A stretch of DNA of 46,292 nucleotides, from contig KQ960878.1 of the NCBI GenBank assembly GCA_001553355.1, forward strand, positions 1-46,292, read 5' to 3'. This document shows positions 22,141-46,292 of this stretch, one piece after another. The position numbers and the translations under genes are program-made. This DNA comes from Veillonellaceae bacterium DNF00626. GTDB taxonomy: Bacteria > Bacillota > Negativicutes > Veillonellales > Dialisteraceae. Position 1 is the stretch's first letter. Each line of letters opens with the position of its first letter. The notes below the pieces were generated by a model that did not search any database, was not told the origin of the DNA, and was given only the letters and a program-made list of their open reading frames with translations.

Positions 22141-22171
22141 AAAAAAACCTTCGTCCGTTAAGGGACGAAAG
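22141..22171 (-). terminator. T-box attenuator terminator
   Basis: A 9-bp GC-containing hairpin with a 6-nt loop is followed by seven T residues on the minus strand, immediately after the T-box motif and about 20 nt before the first gene of the methionine operon. Confidence 0.88.
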
Positions 22172-22405
22172 TATCGTGTTACCACCCAATTTTATAAATA
22201 CATCACTGTATTTACCTTTGTAGGTACGCCGGTCTAAGCCATAAATACCGCAGCGCTGTAACGGGCACACCCGGCAGACTTAATTATTCGGCCTGTCCGA
22301 CTCAGAAACCATCTTCAGTAAATCTCATTTTGCTTCTTTTCACCGATTGAAGCTCTCTGTAAAAACTACTTTTTACTTACTCTTTTCATCATAGTCAATT
22401 TTTAA
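22141..22405 (-). promoter_or_regulatory. T-box leader, probably methionine-specific
   Basis: Read on the minus strand, the leader has the antiterminator T-box TGGGTGGTAACACG (22188-22175), which pairs with the tRNA acceptor end. Next comes the competing terminator, CTTTCGTCC/GGACGAAGG (22171-22163 with 22156-22148) with a T7 run. Upstream, stem I elements are visible: AGTAA pairing with TTACT, a GGTG apical motif, and ATG followed by A just before TTACT in the expected specifier position. An ATG specifier fits the downstream metH/metF genes. Uncharged tRNA-Met should allow read-through. T-box identity is strong; the specifier is an inference. Confidence 0.88.
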
Positions 22406-39794: not shown

Positions 39795-39850
39795 AAAATA
39801 AAATGCCGTAAACGGAATGCGCTCTTCGTTTACGGCATTTTATTTTTCCT
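39794..39850. terminator. Bidirectional terminator between yneA and the recombinase gene
   Basis: A perfect 21-bp stem (39794-39814 with 39827-39847) around a 12-nt loop. It overlaps the last codons of the minus-strand recombinase gene, so it ends both convergent genes. Confidence 0.88.
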
Positions 39851-40823
39851 TATCAAAAATCATTGAAATAGGATTATTCGTAAATACGCTTGCTTCATTA
39901 ATATAATGACGCACCATTTCCACCGACTTATGTCGTGTTTGCTTCATGATTAAACGTTCTTCGATACCGTTTAATGCCGCATAGGTAGCAAAACCATGTC
40001 TTAAACTATGAGCACCATATAAATCAACCGGAAGACCGATGGCTGATACATATTTCTTTACAATTAAATTGATGGTCTTGTCATTGATGCGTCTGGTAGC
40101 GACCTTTTGACTCTTTAATATACCTCGAAAAAGAGGACCTGAAGTAATTTTTGATACATTCATCCAATGCTTGACAGCTCGTACAGCGCACATATTTTCT
40201 TCTTTTATATAGGGAATACCCACAGATTGACCGGCTTTTTCCTGATCTGTTTTGGAATGAAATAAAGTGACAATCATTCCTTGAGGGAAGAAAGATAAAT
40301 TTTCTACATCTAATCCTGCCAATTCACTTCGGCGAAAAGCACCCAAAAAGCCAAGCAAAAGAATGGCCTTGTCCCGTGCTCCCACGAGAGAAGTGTCATC
40401 TATGAGAGAAATCATCTTCTCTAATTCCTCCCAGTAAATAGGAGTTTTTCCTTTTTGCATGATTCCTTTCATGCGATGTAAACCGATGAGCGCTTCCCGA
40501 ACAAGCCAAGCATGGCAAGGATTGTCTTCAGTATATCCGGCAGCATTAAAGTTTTCAGAAATAGCACTGATACGCCGACGAATAGTAGACACCTTAGCAT
40601 AATCTGCCAAATCGTTAATATAATTAATAATAGTTTCAGACGTAGCGGGGAACGACGACTGATGGTGATAACGACACCAATCACAAAAATCATTCCAATC
40701 AGATTCATAAGCATCGATGGTATTCTCCGATTTCGTTTCAGCTAATGTCGCCAAACTTTTATCAGATAATCCCGTATTCTCTTGAATCCTTACAAAATCT
40801 CTGATATAAAAATGATTTTTCAT
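39840..40823 (-). CDS. Tyrosine recombinase/integrase
   Basis: A 327-residue site-specific recombinase. An N-terminal SAM-like core-binding domain (about 15-115) is followed by the catalytic domain with Arg164 (GAFRRSEL), Lys191 (HSKTDQEK), His272 and Arg275 (HSLRHGFAT), His298 (TRHKS) and nucleophile Tyr307 (VRHYINEA): all active-site residues are present. GAGGTGG lies 8 nt before ATG, and a TATAAT (40864-40859) lies upstream. No phage or plasmid genes, tRNA or attachment repeats adjoin. It is not an XerC/D by its context, and may act in DNA inversion or as a remnant of an integrated element. It borders the surface-protein cassettes. Confidence 0.92.
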   Translation of the reverse strand: MKNHFYIRDFVRIQENTGLSDKSLATLAETKSENTIDAYESDWNDFCDWCRYHHQSSFPATSETIINYINDLADYAKVSTIRRRISAISENFNAAGYTEDNPCHAWLVREALIGLHRMKGIMQKGKTPIYWEELEKMISLIDDTSLVGARDKAILLLGFLGAFRRSELAGLDVENLSFFPQGMIVTLFHSKTDQEKAGQSVGIPYIKEENMCAVRAVKHWMNVSKITSGPLFRGILKSQKVATRRINDKTINLIVKKYVSAIGLPVDLYGAHSLRHGFATYAALNGIEERLIMKQTRHKSVEMVRHYINEASVFTNNPISMIFDKEK

Positions 40824-41307: not shown

Positions 41308-41336
41308 TTGAAAAAAGAAAAAATATATTGTATGAT
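41308..41336 (+). promoter_or_regulatory. Promoter of the first cobalamin-riboswitch cassette
   Basis: TTGAAA (41308-41313) and TATGAT (41331-41336) are separated by 17 nt, about 50 nt before the aptamer. Confidence 0.8.
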
Positions 41337-41386
41337 AATTTATATTAGATATGGTTATAAATTAAATGAATAAAATAGATTAAATG

Positions 41387-41544
41387 AGAATACTCATGGG
41401 AAATATCGGTGTGATTCCGAAACTAGCCCGTAGCTGTAAAGTGAACATTGTCATGGAAAATCTGGCACACAGACATGGCAATGTGATGAACGAAGTCAGA
41501 ATGCCATGGATTCTTATCTGTTGGTGACTTGCGTGGCATGAGTA
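41387..41544 (+). promoter_or_regulatory. Cobalamin riboswitch 1
   Basis: Core elements in order: GGGAA (41398-41402), GGTGTGATTCC (41408-41418), GCCCGTAGCTGT (41426-41437), a variable stem CATTGTCATG/CATGGCAATG (41446-41455 with 41474-41483) and the B12 box GAAGTCAGAATGCCA (41492-41506). TACTCATG (41391-41398) can pair perfectly with CATGAGTA (41537-41544). The core GCCCGtaGCTGT departs from the usual GCCCGCaACTGT. It precedes the autotransporter gene and should make it respond to cobalamin. Confidence 0.88.
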
Positions 41545-41590
41545 CAGATGTGGTTAAAAAACTTCATTTGTGTTAATGTTGCGCTTTTTT
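41531..41590 (+). terminator. Riboswitch 1 expression-platform terminator
   Basis: GCGTGGCAT (41531-41539) pairs with ATGTTGCGC (41576-41584, with three G-T pairs), followed by TTTTTT. The 5' arm also contains bases that can pair with the aptamer, so terminator and aptamer compete. Confidence 0.65.
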
Positions 41591-41638
41591 ATAGTAGAAT
41601 ATGTAATAAAGCCACTATTCCAAAAAGGGGGAGGACAT

Positions 41639-41677
41639 ATGAAAAGAATTATTTATCGAAGTCATAGACCGCCATAA
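41639..41677 (+). CDS. Putative 12-residue leader peptide of cassette 1
   Basis: ATG followed by codons for MKRIIYRSHRPP and a TAA stop, with a very strong ribosome binding site GGGGGAGG 4 nt upstream. It lies between the riboswitch terminator and the autotransporter gene. Such a short frame could be chance, but the ribosome binding site is among the best in the window and cassette 2 has a similar basic peptide in the same place. It may act in translation-linked control of the downstream gene. No homologue is known to me. Confidence 0.4.
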   Translation: MKRIIYRSHRPP

Positions 41678-41775
41678 AGTTTTTGTTATATGTTTTGTAA
41701 AAGTAAAAGGGGAAATATTTTTGCAGTTGAATAATAAGAATAAAAAACTATTTTTATCAAAAGGAGATAATGATT

Positions 41776-44445
41776 ATGTGGAAAAAAGAAAATCAAATCA
41801 ATATGAAAAAATTGGCTGCCGGCGTAGCTATATTACTGATGGCAGGATGTTATCAAGCAATGGCAGATAATAGTGATATAACAAAAGTGGAACCGGTGGA
41901 GAAGATTGAAGTAGATTTAAATAAGCCGGTGAATATGCAAATCGCTGAAACTATACATTATGCCGATGAAACAAAAGCTTGGTGGAGTAAAACAGGACTT
42001 TATGACGGAAAAGGAAATTATAATTTTAACCACGATGTGACCTTAGATGTAAAAGCAGAAAAAGATATGGCAGGGTTGGAGTTTGATCCTCACTTTGGTA
42101 CTGTATTTTGGCATGGAGATACCAAGGGAAAAATTAATATGAACGGTCATAAATTGGTAGTTAAAGCATCAGGAGCGGCAGGAGTTGAAAGAAGAACTCC
42201 GTATGGCATTTTACAATATAGCGGTGATTTAACGATAGAGAATACAAAAGGAATTGATATAGAAGTAGACAGTACACATAGTACATATGGTCGTGGAATA
42301 TGGGTAGGTGGTATACGTAGCGTAACCAAATTTTATAAAGTGCCGGGATATTCCAATTTGCATATTAAAAACGGAGACAGTTGGGATGAGGCTGTTAAAA
42401 TTCGTGTTATTGGTAAAGGAGAAGACTTTGGTGCGGTTGAAGCCAATGCTGAAGATGGAAGAGCAGACATTACCATTGACGGTTTGGTAGACATCGTTTC
42501 AAAAGACTGGAGAGCTATAGAAGTGCACGGAGGACCCGCAAATAAAATAAACAAAGGGAAGGCACATATTTTTATTGGCGGTGGAAAAATTGTAGGTACT
42601 GATGTGGCATCTATTGCTGCTTATACTGCCGGAGAAATTGAAATTAATGCAAAGTATGAAATAAATAGAAACACAAATAAAATGGAAATAAAAGCCTTAT
42701 CGGAAACACGCCCGGTACAAATTGTAGGAGATGTAAGTTCAGAAAGTGATGGAATTATCACATTGGGATTGAATAACAAAGATTCTTATCTCCAAGGCCT
42801 TGTAACTACGACCGGTATTTATGGCATCAGCAGATTTACACAAAAACCGGCTTTAATTCCGGGGAACGTTTATATGCGATTAGCAAATGGGGCGACATGG
42901 ATACATGAACAAGTAGGGGTTGGATATATCAACGAAAAAGGGCATGATGCAGATGTGCATAGACGTGTTATCGGTGCATCTCCGGATAGTGAAGTTCAGA
43001 TATTACAAGCATCCAACGGAATCATACGCCAAAATGCGAAACATAAACTGACTATTGATGATTATAGTGGAGATATGAAAGTTATTTACAAACATGATGG
43101 AGACGGCAGTCGGGGAGAAAACTATAAAGCCGGTGATGTAGTAATTAAAACAGCACGAGAAGGCTCTATTATAACGATGATAACCGACAATAGTGGAATT
43201 AATATGCAAGATGCCGATGCTGTGGATCATGCGCTTAATGCATTAGCAGGGAAACTGATTTATGAAGGTTATAAAAATAAAGAAAATAACTTGAGTGGTC
43301 GTGTGACTATAGCAGAAGGTGTACTTGATTCTTCTGTCACTATGAAATTAGGCGATTTGAAAGAAATGGCGTTTAATGCAACAACCGGACAAGGAAGTTT
43401 GAAAAAAGAAATTAATCAAGCAGACAAAAAAGAGCATACCATCATTGTAGAAAAAACAGCGAATGACAAAGAGATTCAGAATGTGACACCGAAAAAAGTA
43501 GAAAAAGAAGTAGGGAAATATGAAACACAGACGATGATGGGATTACGAATGGGATTTACCGCTGTTAATACTGCATGGAGTATTTATGGAAATGATTTAG
43601 AAAGACGTATGGGAGATGTAAGACTTCTAAATAAAGAAAGTGGCGTGTGGACAACATACGAAAGCGGTAAAAACGATTTTAATGGAACTGATGCAGATAA
43701 ACAAGAAATCTACTATATGCAGAAATATAAAAAAATCCAAATCGGTTATGATAAAAAAGTTGGTGATTTGATTATCGGTGGTGCTGCAGAATATGCAGTA
43801 ATAGATAATACTTTAGCCGACTTGGGGACAAGCAAAATTACCGGAATTAGTGGAGCTATTTATGGAACAAAACAAGGAGAAAATGGTAATTACGTTGATG
43901 TTATTGCTAAATTTGGAACATTGAACAACAAATTTGATATCAAGGCGATGAATTTAAATGCTGATATTAAAGGGGAATACAGAGTACCGGCTTATTCAAT
44001 TAGTACAGAATTTGGGACACGGAAAATATTAAAAGACGGAATTTATGTAGAACCATCTATTGAATGGACACTGAGTCGTGTAGAAGGAGATACAAAAGAA
44101 GTAGCAGTCGAAAATCAGCAAAAAATGACAATTAAACAAGGCGGTATGAATAGCTACGTTGGTAGATTAGCGTTAGCATTAGGAAAAGAAACCGAAAAAA
44201 GTCAAGTATTTGCTAAATTGGCAGTTGCACGGGAATTCAATGGAGAAATGAAAACAGAATTGACAATGAATAATACGACTAAACAATCCAAGATTAATTT
44301 ACGTGACACATGGCTTGACTTTGAAATCGGAGGCAGCTATAAGATGAGCGAAACAAGCTACATCTATGGTACATTTACAAAGAATATCAAATCTAAATTT
44401 AATAATAAATGGAGATTGGATGCCGGTATACGATTTGCATTCTAA
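41776..44445 (+). CDS. Autotransporter with beta-helix-like passenger, B12-riboswitch controlled
   Basis: An 889-residue secreted outer-membrane protein. Residues 1-9 are a hydrophilic extension, then NMKKLAAGVAILLMAGCYQAMA is a signal peptide (cut likely after Ala30). Cys25 sits in a lipobox-like MAGC. The passenger (about 31-580) is rich in short G-, N- and D-containing beta-strands of the kind that form right-handed beta-helices in autotransporters (NGHKLVVKASG, LTIENTKGIDIEV, ADITIDGLVDI). The C-terminal 300 residues form the barrel, with alternating strands and the outer-membrane terminal pattern WRLDAGIRFAF ending in Phe. ATG 41770 also fits the frame, but 41776 lies 9 nt after AAGGAG and aligns with the paralog. 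The ligand is unknown; riboswitch control suggests a corrinoid-related surface role. Confidence 0.88.
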   Translation: MWKKENQINMKKLAAGVAILLMAGCYQAMADNSDITKVEPVEKIEVDLNKPVNMQIAETIHYADETKAWWSKTGLYDGKGNYNFNHDVTLDVKAEKDMAGLEFDPHFGTVFWHGDTKGKINMNGHKLVVKASGAAGVERRTPYGILQYSGDLTIENTKGIDIEVDSTHSTYGRGIWVGGIRSVTKFYKVPGYSNLHIKNGDSWDEAVKIRVIGKGEDFGAVEANAEDGRADITIDGLVDIVSKDWRAIEVHGGPANKINKGKAHIFIGGGKIVGTDVASIAAYTAGEIEINAKYEINRNTNKMEIKALSETRPVQIVGDVSSESDGIITLGLNNKDSYLQGLVTTTGIYGISRFTQKPALIPGNVYMRLANGATWIHEQVGVGYINEKGHDADVHRRVIGASPDSEVQILQASNGIIRQNAKHKLTIDDYSGDMKVIYKHDGDGSRGENYKAGDVVIKTAREGSIITMITDNSGINMQDADAVDHALNALAGKLIYEGYKNKENNLSGRVTIAEGVLDSSVTMKLGDLKEMAFNATTGQGSLKKEINQADKKEHTIIVEKTANDKEIQNVTPKKVEKEVGKYETQTMMGLRMGFTAVNTAWSIYGNDLERRMGDVRLLNKESGVWTTYESGKNDFNGTDADKQEIYYMQKYKKIQIGYDKKVGDLIIGGAAEYAVIDNTLADLGTSKITGISGAIYGTKQGENGNYVDVIAKFGTLNNKFDIKAMNLNADIKGEYRVPAYSISTEFGTRKILKDGIYVEPSIEWTLSRVEGDTKEVAVENQQKMTIKQGGMNSYVGRLALALGKETEKSQVFAKLAVAREFNGEMKTELTMNNTTKQSKINLRDTWLDFEIGGSYKMSETSYIYGTFTKNIKSKFNNKWRLDAGIRFAF

Positions 44446-44473
44446 AAGCATAGATAAAAAAATATAATTATTT

Positions 44474-44508
44474 CAGGCAATCATTCTATTCAGTGGTTGC
44501 CTGTTTTT
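44474..44508 (+). terminator. Terminator of autotransporter 1
   Basis: A 10-bp stem CAGGCAATCA/TGGTTGCCTG (44474-44483 with 44494-44503, one T-G pair) is followed by TTTTT. Confidence 0.88.
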
Positions 44509-44601
44509 GGTAAGAATATAAAAAAGTTGAGTCCGGTAGAAATTACATATAATAAATGAATTTAAAATGATAGAACATAAAATCTATAAAGTAAAAAGTA
44601 T

Positions 44602-44630
44602 TTCAAAAAAGAAAGAGGAAATGGTATAAT
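44602..44630 (+). promoter_or_regulatory. Promoter of the second cobalamin-riboswitch cassette
   Basis: TTCAAA (44602-44607) and extended -10 TGGTATAAT (44622-44630), with 17 nt between hexamers, lie about 40 nt before the aptamer. Confidence 0.82.
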
Positions 44631-44667
44631 AAATCCGATAAAAGATTACTTCATTATAATTCAATAA

Positions 44668-44833
44668 ATGCATTATGGAACAATCTGGGAAATTTCGGTG
44701 AGAAGCCGATGCTGGCCCGCAACTGTAAGGGGAGTTCTTTTAGGAGATAGCCGTCATGGGACATAAAAGAACAAAGAACTAAGTCAGAGTGCCATCTGTT
44801 TTTTATATCTGCGCGGCATGAGTGAATATGCAT
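44668..44833 (+). promoter_or_regulatory. Cobalamin riboswitch 2
   Basis: Core elements: CTGGGAA (44685-44691), CGGTGAGAAGCCGATG (44696-44711), the consensus GGCCCGCAACTGT (44714-44726), variable stem GTTCTTTTA/TAAAAGAAC (44734-44742 with 44764-44772), and B12 box AAGTCAGAGTGCCA (44780-44793). ATGCAT at 44668 and 44828 can close the fold. The core is closer to consensus than in riboswitch 1. It precedes the second surface-protein gene. Confidence 0.92.
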
Positions 44834-44901
44834 AAAGAATCGGTGGCAATTTGTTTTTACGTTGATTCTTTAAGTATTATTTCATGTTCGCGCTTTTTAT
44901 T
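44811..44901 (+). terminator. Riboswitch 2 expression-platform terminator
   Basis: GCGCG-G-CATGA (44811-44821) pairs with TCATG-TT-CGCGC (44882-44893) around a small internal loop, with an inner stem AAAGAATC/GATTCTTT (44834-44841 with 44864-44871), followed by TTTTTATT. The 5' arm GCGCGGCATGAGT closely matches GCGTGGCATGAGT in cassette 1. Confidence 0.65.
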
Positions 44902-45309
44902 ATTAATCATAAGATTTGATAATAAAATATATATCGATAATAGAAGGCGAAAGTAAGAAAGTGGATTGTTATGAAAGAAATATGGATAAGCGATGATAGA
45001 GAAAATAAAGTATTTAGCAAAACGAATATTGTAAAGGAGATATTGGTAAAATTGATAGCGAGAGAAATATAAATGGGCAGGATAAATGATGAAAAACAAA
45101 AACATAGTAAAGAAATATATCCTTATAGAATTTTATGCAGGAAGGAGAAACTTGATGAAATACACCTATAAAAAGAAGAGATATTCCTAAGGAAAATAGA
45201 TAAATATAGTAAAAAAGTTAGGAGGTGTTTTACCGCATGTAAGTGAAACGGATATTTTCAATACTAAGGGAAAAGTAAAATTTATTTTATAGTTAATCGA
45301 GGAGGAAGT
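44902..45309 (+). other. Long untranslated leader of cassette 2
   Basis: About 400 bases separate the terminator from the second surface-protein gene. They contain an open frame of 34 codons (45086-45190), whose last 11 codons have their own strong ribosome binding site, and an AGGAGGTG (45220-45227) followed by ATGTAA (45237-45242), a start directly joined to a stop. No normal gene is seen. Confidence 0.45.
45155..45190 (+). CDS. Putative 11-residue leader peptide of cassette 2
   Basis: ATG, codons for MKYTYKKKRYS, and TAA, with GGAAGGAG ending about 8 nt upstream. Like MKRIIYRSHRPP in cassette 1 it starts MK, is strongly basic and contains Tyr, and it sits in the same place between riboswitch and surface-protein gene. 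The frame is open upstream to ATG 45086. Short frames arise easily by chance in AT-rich DNA, so confidence is limited. Confidence 0.35.
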   Translation: MKYTYKKKRYS

Positions 45310-46292
45310 ATGAGTTATTACATGAGTCACAAACAAATGAAAAAATTAGCCGTAGGTATAGTTACTCTTTTAATGGCAGGCGGATGTCAAGCATCAGTAT
45401 CAGCTGATACATCAAAGGCGATTGTAGGAGGAGAAACAACACTGACCGAAGATCGAGTTGTTGATGTATTAGAACCTGCAGCACCAAGAAGAGCTTATGC
45501 CGGGATATTTAATGAATCAGCAGAAAACCCTACTGTTTTAGATATGGCAGGACATAACCTGACAATCCAATCATTTGTTAAGGATGGTGGAAAAGAAGAG
45601 GGTGTTGCAGGACCTATTGGTATTTTAGGTATGCAGGGGTCAAAAATAGAAATTTATAGCAATAAAAATCAGTCAAATGCACCTAAGAGTACGATTACTA
45701 TCCATGAAGTGGCAAAGTATAGCGATGCTGCAGCGCAAGGTGGAGGTCAATTTGGTGCTATTGGTATCAAAATGGGAGATATGTACGCTAAGAAATCAAG
45801 TACGGCAAATATTGACACAGATGTGGTTATCGAAAAATTATTAGGGGGCACATGGTATACCAGAGGTATTGAGGCATATGGACTTGCTACTTTAAACATT
45901 AAAGGGACATTTAAAATAAATCCGGGAGCCATAGGAATTTTAAAACCGAAAAGTGGAAATATATTTACAAGTGCTATTTTCTTTAGTGAAGATGGGGGAA
46001 AAATAAATATTCATACAGTGGATATAGATGATTCTCAAAAAAATACGTTACGACGTGGGATTTATGCAGCTAACGGAGGTAAAACTAATTCGGTAGCATC
46101 AATGCTTCACATTGGTGGGGGAATTTTTAAAGTAAAAGAAGATGCGAAGGGTGACTATTATCTTATGGATTTAGGAAAAGGCGCCCAGGTTTATTTCAAT
46201 ACTAATGAAAATGGAACTGCCGTAGGTACACAGACAGCTGATTTACAGGGAACTATTCGTATGAATGGGGCTTCAGCGTATATTGGACTGAC
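45310..46292 (+). CDS. Second B12-riboswitch-controlled surface protein, N-terminal part (runs off the window)
   Basis: The frame opens at ATG 45310 after AGGAGGA and stays open to the window end (327 codons), so the 3' part is missing. Residues 1-9 are a hydrophilic extension, then QMKKLAVGIVTLLMAGGCQASVSA, which matches the signal peptide of autotransporter 1 (NMKKLAAGVAILLMAGCYQAMA) with the same Met10 offset. Cleavage after Ala32 is likely. The remainder is beta-rich with repeated short strands (TVLDMAGHNLTIQSF, KIEIYSNKN, STITIHEVAKY, LNIKGTFKINP), like a beta-helix passenger. A C-terminal barrel is expected beyond the window. It is a paralog by signal and cassette layout; passengers differ. 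Confidence 0.85.
   Translation, partial: MSYYMSHKQMKKLAVGIVTLLMAGGCQASVSADTSKAIVGGETTLTEDRVVDVLEPAAPRRAYAGIFNESAENPTVLDMAGHNLTIQSFVKDGGKEEGVAGPIGILGMQGSKIEIYSNKNQSNAPKSTITIHEVAKYSDAAAQGGGQFGAIGIKMGDMYAKKSSTANIDTDVVIEKLLGGTWYTRGIEAYGLATLNIKGTFKINPGAIGILKPKSGNIFTSAIFFSEDGGKINIHTVDIDDSQKNTLRRGIYAANGGKTNSVASMLHIGGGIFKVKEDAKGDYYLMDLGKGAQVYFNTNENGTAVGTQTADLQGTIRMNGASAYIGL

Follow-up and report, generated by a model that had tools for sequence, protein, structure and literature searches.

The window analysed here is a 46,292-nucleotide stretch of contig C64 (KQ960878.1; 48,049 bases) in the 1.59 Mb, 64-contig assembly of Veillonellaceae bacterium DNF00626. Near its right-hand end lie two consecutive genes for surface proteins, each preceded by a divergent cobalamin riboswitch. 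The first gene (41770..44445, + strand) encodes an 891-residue protein with a signal peptide, a beta-helix passenger (residues about 45-550) and a type Va barrel (about 600-891), and is followed by an intrinsic terminator (44474..44503, +). The barrel is recognised by PF03797 with 103.6 bits (cut-off 26) and by TIGR01414, and sequence matches in the PDB assign it to the EspP/Hbp/BrkA type. By sequence the passenger has no relative in Pfam or the PDB, where the barrel alone finds matches. An AlphaFold model was built from a thin alignment and is confident for the passenger alone (residues 45-547), the barrel being modelled poorly (predicted local distance difference test, pLDDT, about 30). The modelled passenger resembles the beta-helix passengers of the autotransporters Vag8 (Z 19.7), UpaB (18.6) and pertactin (16.3); Foldseek alone, run on the same passenger model, returned nothing with E under 0.001. 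The gene is a type Va beta-helix autotransporter, so that the barrel and passenger proposed in an earlier note on this DNA both hold. It shares with UpaB, Vag8 and pertactin the order of signal peptide, beta-helix passenger and C-terminal PF03797 barrel (here of the EspP/Hbp kind), but differs from them in its riboswitch control and in the link or fusion of its family to TonB-dependent receptors. The autotransporter adhesins of Veillonella parvula (PMC7549365) likewise belong to a diderm Firmicute, but no cobalamin riboswitch link was found for them in the literature searched.

The second gene (45310..46292, +) is open at the window end, with 327 residues seen. Its signal peptide is of the same type, as the earlier note had noticed, and the two stretches agree at 70% over 57 nucleotides. 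At the edge of the window the sequence passes into a run of N, and no barrel appears in what remains of the contig. We nevertheless regard this gene as a probable autotransporter, because a near-identical paralogue on contig C21, which shares its 5' end, has a passenger that matches the family. Of the two autotransporters claimed at first, one is thus secured as type Va, and the other is secreted, with no barrel in the part that the contig covers.

Both leaders follow one plan. In the first cassette a promoter-like site (TTGAAA-17-TATGAT, 10/12 consensus positions; 41308..41336, +) precedes riboswitch 1 (41383..41543, +), whose core runs from 41394, with L5 GCCCG at 41426-41430, the P6 arm at 41445-41484, the B12 box at 41493-41506 and P13 at 41527-41543; its L13, GCGUGGCAU, spans 41531-41539. 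Intrinsic terminator 1 (41531..41590, +; free energy about -22 kcal/mol) uses L13 as its 5' arm and ends in a U6 tract at 41585-41590. The second cassette has a promoter-like site (TTCAAA-17-TATAAT, with TG before the second hexamer; 44602..44630, +), riboswitch 2 (44666..44823, +; core from 44683, L5 GCCCG at 44715-44719, B12 box at 44781-44794, P13 at 44807-44823, L13 GCGCGGCAU at 44811-44819) and intrinsic terminator 2 (44811..44898, +; about -30 kcal/mol), whose 5' arm is L13 plus the P13 3' strand and whose U5 tract lies at 44894-44898. The units of promoter, riboswitch and terminator described earlier therefore stand in their riboswitches and terminators; the promoter-like sites occur at a density not above that in shuffles, and the terminator is not separate from the aptamer. 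A gene for an XerC/D-type tyrosine recombinase (39840-40823, - strand) adjoins the autotransporter pair. An invertible promoter operated by this neighbour was considered and rejected, since a search around the promoter gave no inverted repeats that were both long and close.

A divergent subclass of cobalamin riboswitch

In directed scans RF00174 matched leader 1 at 41360-41520 (26.2 bits, E 1e-4) and leader 2 at 44625-44814 (31.1 bits, E 5.7e-6, slightly below the gathering cut-off of 31.5 bits), and neither leader is reported by Rfam at that threshold. Other members of the same subclass pass it, namely the one on contig C18 (41.2 bits) and four from Selenomonas (33.6-38.8 bits). Two other identities were rejected: Cbl-II (RF01689) reached 14.3 and 17.3 bits against a cut-off of 36.5, and the AdoCbl subclass (RF01482) 19.8 bits for leader 2, with leader 1 not listed, against a cut-off of 50. 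The P4, P5, P6 and B12 box core of RF00174 is present, with covariation. We aligned six members, four from the window genome and two from G021, a genome of another family of the order, on P3-P6, P13 and the kissing loop. In this alignment 95.3% of cells are paired and 18 of the 32 pairs show changes on both sides, a figure matched by none of 500 shuffles, while slid versions of the alignment fall to 35-40% pairing. The pattern in P4, P5, P6, P13 and the kissing loop was maintained when the four Selenomonas leaders were added. L5 and L13 change together, from GCCCG/CG-GGC in the window to GUCCG/CG-GAC at C18, UCCUG/CA-GG in G021 and UUCCG/CG-GA in Selenomonas; over the ten leaders two of the five kissing pairs are compensatory, two are invariant and one is broken in six leaders. 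Both window leaders are divergent cobalamin riboswitches, which confirms that such an element precedes each gene. They share with RF00174 the P4-P6 core, the B12 box and the L5-L13 kissing loop, but the usual P7-P12 features are not apparent and their targets are autotransporters.

The window genome holds eight RF00174 matches: three canonical elements, a non-canonical one at C39:23288 (31.3 bits) upstream of YbjN-like and Skp-like genes, and four of one divergent subclass with a common layout. Besides the window pair, the latter comprise C18:1711, upstream of a 1454-residue autotransporter, and C24:19947, upstream of ECF-type transporter genes. The chance of three of the four falling on autotransporters is about 1e-6. 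Degenerate copies precede two further autotransporters of the same genome, on C48 (L095:3734-3883, 25.4 bits) and C39 (L024:11636-11747, 15.7 bits); the C48 copy has lost the aptamer consensus and kept both the P13/terminator overlap and the L5-L13 complementarity (UAUUGC/GCAAUA). With C18, these degenerate leaders and paralogues that have no riboswitch, the family does have the further members that the earlier note expected.

A covariance model, R1, whose six source sequences (four from the window genome, two from G021) are among those it scores, gives the window elements 147.4 and 139.2 bits and canonical elements 58 bits or less. Over 61 genomes of the order it found the subclass in the window genome (four) and G021 (two) only. 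Over 380 genomes of the class, its best matches beyond the model-source genomes were the four Selenomonas leaders (110-113 bits), all of them directly 5' of an autotransporter gene whose product has the same type of passenger (identity up to 44%). One of these genomes is S. infelix ATCC 43532; the other three were assigned to Selenomonas from near-identical loci, two of them also by genus tag. In S. infelix the passenger consists of consecutive modules, each of which resembles the one module present in the window protein (36-47% identity). A pattern scan of 84,980 species, from which the window genome itself may be absent, gave one true match, S. infelix, and one likely chance match. The linkage is thus conserved in relatives, and the setting is indeed a diderm Firmicute, S. 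infelix being of the same class as the window genome. The assemblies are gapped in the repetitive autotransporter genes.

Two other regulatory stretches were noted. At L011:4505-5600 (C39) a tandem pair of canonical cobalamin riboswitches is followed by about 680 nucleotides that hold no long open reading frame, with several similar hairpin repeats (..AACGATGATACGAGGGAAATGTCATCGTTC..), and then by a polyribonucleotide-nucleotidyltransferase-like gene. The window also carries a T-box leader (22158-22401, -; 109.3 bits).

Linkage and fusion to BtuB-like receptors

In all four Selenomonas loci the order is a canonical cobalamin riboswitch, a BtuB-like TonB-dependent receptor gene, the subclass riboswitch and the autotransporter gene, followed in three of the four by a YbjN-like gene. 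G021 has two subclass riboswitches: the first precedes, in order, Skp-like, YbjN-like, BtuB-like receptor and 3326-residue autotransporter genes, and the second heads a gene for a YadA-like protein. In the window genome the C44 autotransporter is preceded by a receptor gene, and the C15 autotransporter by the broken remnant of one. Six further genomes have a reading frame in which an autotransporter barrel is joined to a complete TonB-dependent receptor. Four of these fusions, in G114 (L167), G202 (L169), G144 (L170) and G353 (L171), carry the Pfam autotransporter, Plug and TonB barrel domains, and those in G154 (L175) and G205 (L177) were assigned by similarity to them. The autotransporter passenger and barrel come first and the receptor after, giving double-barrel proteins; the G114 fusion has 3548 residues and in its receptor part shares 55% identity with the receptor of G021, and another fusion protein is 1468 residues long. 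A tie to corrinoid uptake, along the lines of the corrinoid capture that the earlier note had suggested, is supported by neighbouring or fused BtuB-like receptors.

The C44 receptor has PF07715 (Plug) and PF00593 (TonB barrel), and NCBIfam TonB receptor models cover nearly the full length of the G021 receptor. The vitamin B12 receptor model TIGR01779 (TonB-B12) is the best or second-best model for these proteins, at 125.5 bits for C44 and 115.2 bits for G021, yet far below its trusted cut-off of 599.7, and we therefore use the name BtuB-like. The Bacteroides BtuB-BtuG/BtuH loci (PMC10404256) similarly encode a BtuB-type receptor together with an additional surface protein and carry a cobalamin riboswitch. 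BtuG, however, is a beta-propeller lipoprotein. The surface protein of the present loci is instead a type Va autotransporter that displays a beta-helix passenger; some genomes encode it as a fusion with the receptor, and control is predicted to have the opposite sign. Our literature search found no description of an autotransporter-receptor fusion and no paper joining autotransporters with control by a cobalamin (B12) riboswitch, so neither arrangement was found in the literature searched.

Three further features of these loci were observed. The YbjN-like gene recurs beside cobalamin riboswitches and BtuB-like or autotransporter genes (C39:23288 and Selenomonas, as well as G007 C89 and G021). 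In three of the four Selenomonas genomes the start of the BtuB-like receptor gene has 7, 10 or 9 G in the signal-peptide codons (L163, L164, L165; L165:1200), and a G run in such codons is the usual sign of slippage phase variation. Finally, two to four cobalamin riboswitch matches of differing subclass stand in one locus before the Skp-like and fusion genes of G353 (L171), G154 (L175) and G205 (L177).

Terminator overlap and the sign of regulation

The terminators begin exactly at L13 in the window leaders (41531 and 44811), directly adjoining the aptamer and using its P13/L13 bases, with no separate downstream module. We examined this overlap in eleven leaders, the ten intact members of the subclass and the degenerate C48 copy. 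In all eleven the L13/P13-3' strand pairs over 9-13 nucleotides with the terminator 3' arm (12 of 13 at C48), and 22 of 440 downstream shuffles reached 9 nucleotides. A systematic comparison, which used the strongest terminator per leader and target classes that we assigned from the downstream reading frames, found the terminator 5' arm overlapping P13/L13 in 12 of 12 autotransporter-linked leaders and in 3 of 37 other cobalamin leaders (Fisher 4.9e-9), P13 in G114 and G359 being placed from the model alignment and so less certainly than in the others. As leaders of the same genus are not independent, the autotransporter-linked side was also collapsed to genera, which gave 6.6e-5. The three other leaders with the overlap are the ECF leader at C24, L030 and one canonical C39 element. 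In the canonical riboswitches of the adjacent Selenomonas receptor genes the terminator is separate and lies further downstream.

Because the terminator 5' arm consists of L13 and the P13 3' strand, P13 with its kissing loop and the terminator are mutually exclusive. To our knowledge, every characterised corrinoid riboswitch but one represses. That one, the proven activating riboswitch of Alkalihalobacillus halodurans cobT (Procknow et al. 2023, PMC10653944), resembles the window leaders in its L5 GCCCG, its bulged kissing loop and the use of the P13 3' strand in the terminator 5' arm, and there P13 is the antiterminator. It differs in its target, cobT, from the surface autotransporters found here, and our elements, of predicted function, are a divergent Negativicutes aptamer subclass. 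Since the overlap is laid out as in cobT and the pairing needed for repression is poorly conserved, as described below, we predict that the autotransporter leaders are switched ON and not OFF by corrinoid. The sign of the switch was absent from the earlier note; the platform points to corrinoid activation, the opposite of the usual BtuB/BtuG logic.

Short upstream reading frames of 11-12 codons with a good Shine-Dalgarno sequence lie between terminator and autotransporter start in four of four leaders: MKRIIYRSHRPP (12 codons, 41639..41677, +) and MKYTYKKKRYS (11 codons, 45155..45190, +) in the window, MIVLNPTIENF at C18 (L010:2052) and MKYAYKRKRYS at C48 (L095:3989). A second layer of control by these reading frames is possible.

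Proposed mechanism and competing explanations

Our preferred explanation, to which we give a probability of about 0.58, is that the autotransporters are corrinoid-activated and form part of a B12-linked outer-membrane system of Negativicutes, working with BtuB-like receptors. RNA polymerase would transcribe the divergent aptamer, and bound corrinoid would let L5 kiss L13 and hold the short P13 hairpin, a structure established by covariation. P13 and the kissing loop would then act as antiterminator, given that the L13/P13 3' strand also forms the terminator 5' arm. With corrinoid the autotransporter mRNA would be made, and without it transcription would stop, as the architecture and the A. halodurans cobT precedent suggest. 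The product would be exported, its barrel inserting in the outer membrane and displaying the beta-helix passenger beside a BtuB-like TonB-dependent receptor. Corrinoid binding by the leader RNA, activation and cooperation with the receptor are what we infer; judging from gene linkage and the fusions, the passenger would most likely aid corrinoid capture, a plausible role, or else shield or position the receptor. The narrower proposal of a B12-specific outer-membrane machine in Negativicutes, its beta-helix autotransporter cooperating with or fused to a BtuB-like TonB-dependent receptor, with the autotransporter turned on by corrinoid through an antiterminator riboswitch and the adjacent receptor under a conventional riboswitch, hence opposite signs in one locus, is tentative, and we would put it somewhat short of an even chance.

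Several observations weigh against corrinoid activation or a role in uptake. The subclass occurs in just 2 of the 61 genomes of the order; among the paralogous autotransporters the majority (C44, C54, C60, C21) lack such a riboswitch, as do most relatives. P13 is weak alone (-1 to -3 kcal/mol), so the switch would have to rely on the kissing loop. The overlap is found in none of seven leaders of Skp-like or autotransporter-receptor fusion genes in remoter families. The activating layout is also present on the ECF transporter operon (C24) and on the Skp-YbjN-BtuB-autotransporter operon of G021, where repression by B12 would usually be expected. Finally, the window genome has CbiD and CobS, so B12 synthesis by the organism itself is probable; this weakens the case for scavenging as the sole role, and such a role is not required.

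A serious rival is a surface response to plentiful corrinoid. The riboswitch may sense corrinoid as no more than a cue of niche or community state, while the autotransporter serves generally in adhesion or biofilm formation and its passenger never touches the corrinoid. This fits either sign of the switch, and so overlaps with our preferred explanation. The likeness of the passengers to adhesins and immune-evasion proteins (UpaB, pertactin, Vag8), the YadA-like target of the second G021 element, the many paralogues that have no switch and the probable B12 synthesis all speak for it. Against it stand the repeated adjacency of the autotransporters, and their six fusions, to TonB-dependent receptors, the receptor lying in the operon or beside it under its own cobalamin riboswitch, and we regard it as possible though not probable.

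An ordinary OFF switch would instead pair the B12-box GUGCC with L13 GGCAY as a ligand-free antiterminator; ligand would free L13, the kissing loop would be transient and the terminator would form, so that the autotransporter, like BtuB and BtuG, would be expressed in B12 scarcity. Repression is the mode of nearly all known cobalamin riboswitches (PMC10653944), and the GUGCC:GGCAY pairing can form in the window pair, C24 and G021. However, one of its five pairs is broken, uncompensated, in five of the ten leaders (C18 and the four Selenomonas), and its covariation is no better than that of shuffles (70/500), whereas the kissing loop, which cannot coexist with the terminator, is kept by compensatory changes. 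We therefore rejected this antiterminator and consider repression unlikely. The leader could also be a decaying cassette that recombination has carried between autotransporter paralogues and that no longer regulates. This would account for the degenerate copies at C48 and C39 and for the near-identity of the second window gene to C21 at the 5' end, but is very improbable, given that intact copies keep their helices by compensatory changes across families and that even C48 retains the terminator/P13 overlap.

If corrinoid activation of the autotransporters is correct, these leaders would make up a natural, conserved set of corrinoid riboswitches that activate, with adhesin-like surface proteins as targets. 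Among diderm Firmicutes, for instance the oral Selenomonas, B12 status would then be tied to the cell surface in communities that compete for B12, and the autotransporter/TonB-dependent receptor fusions make the functional link directly testable.

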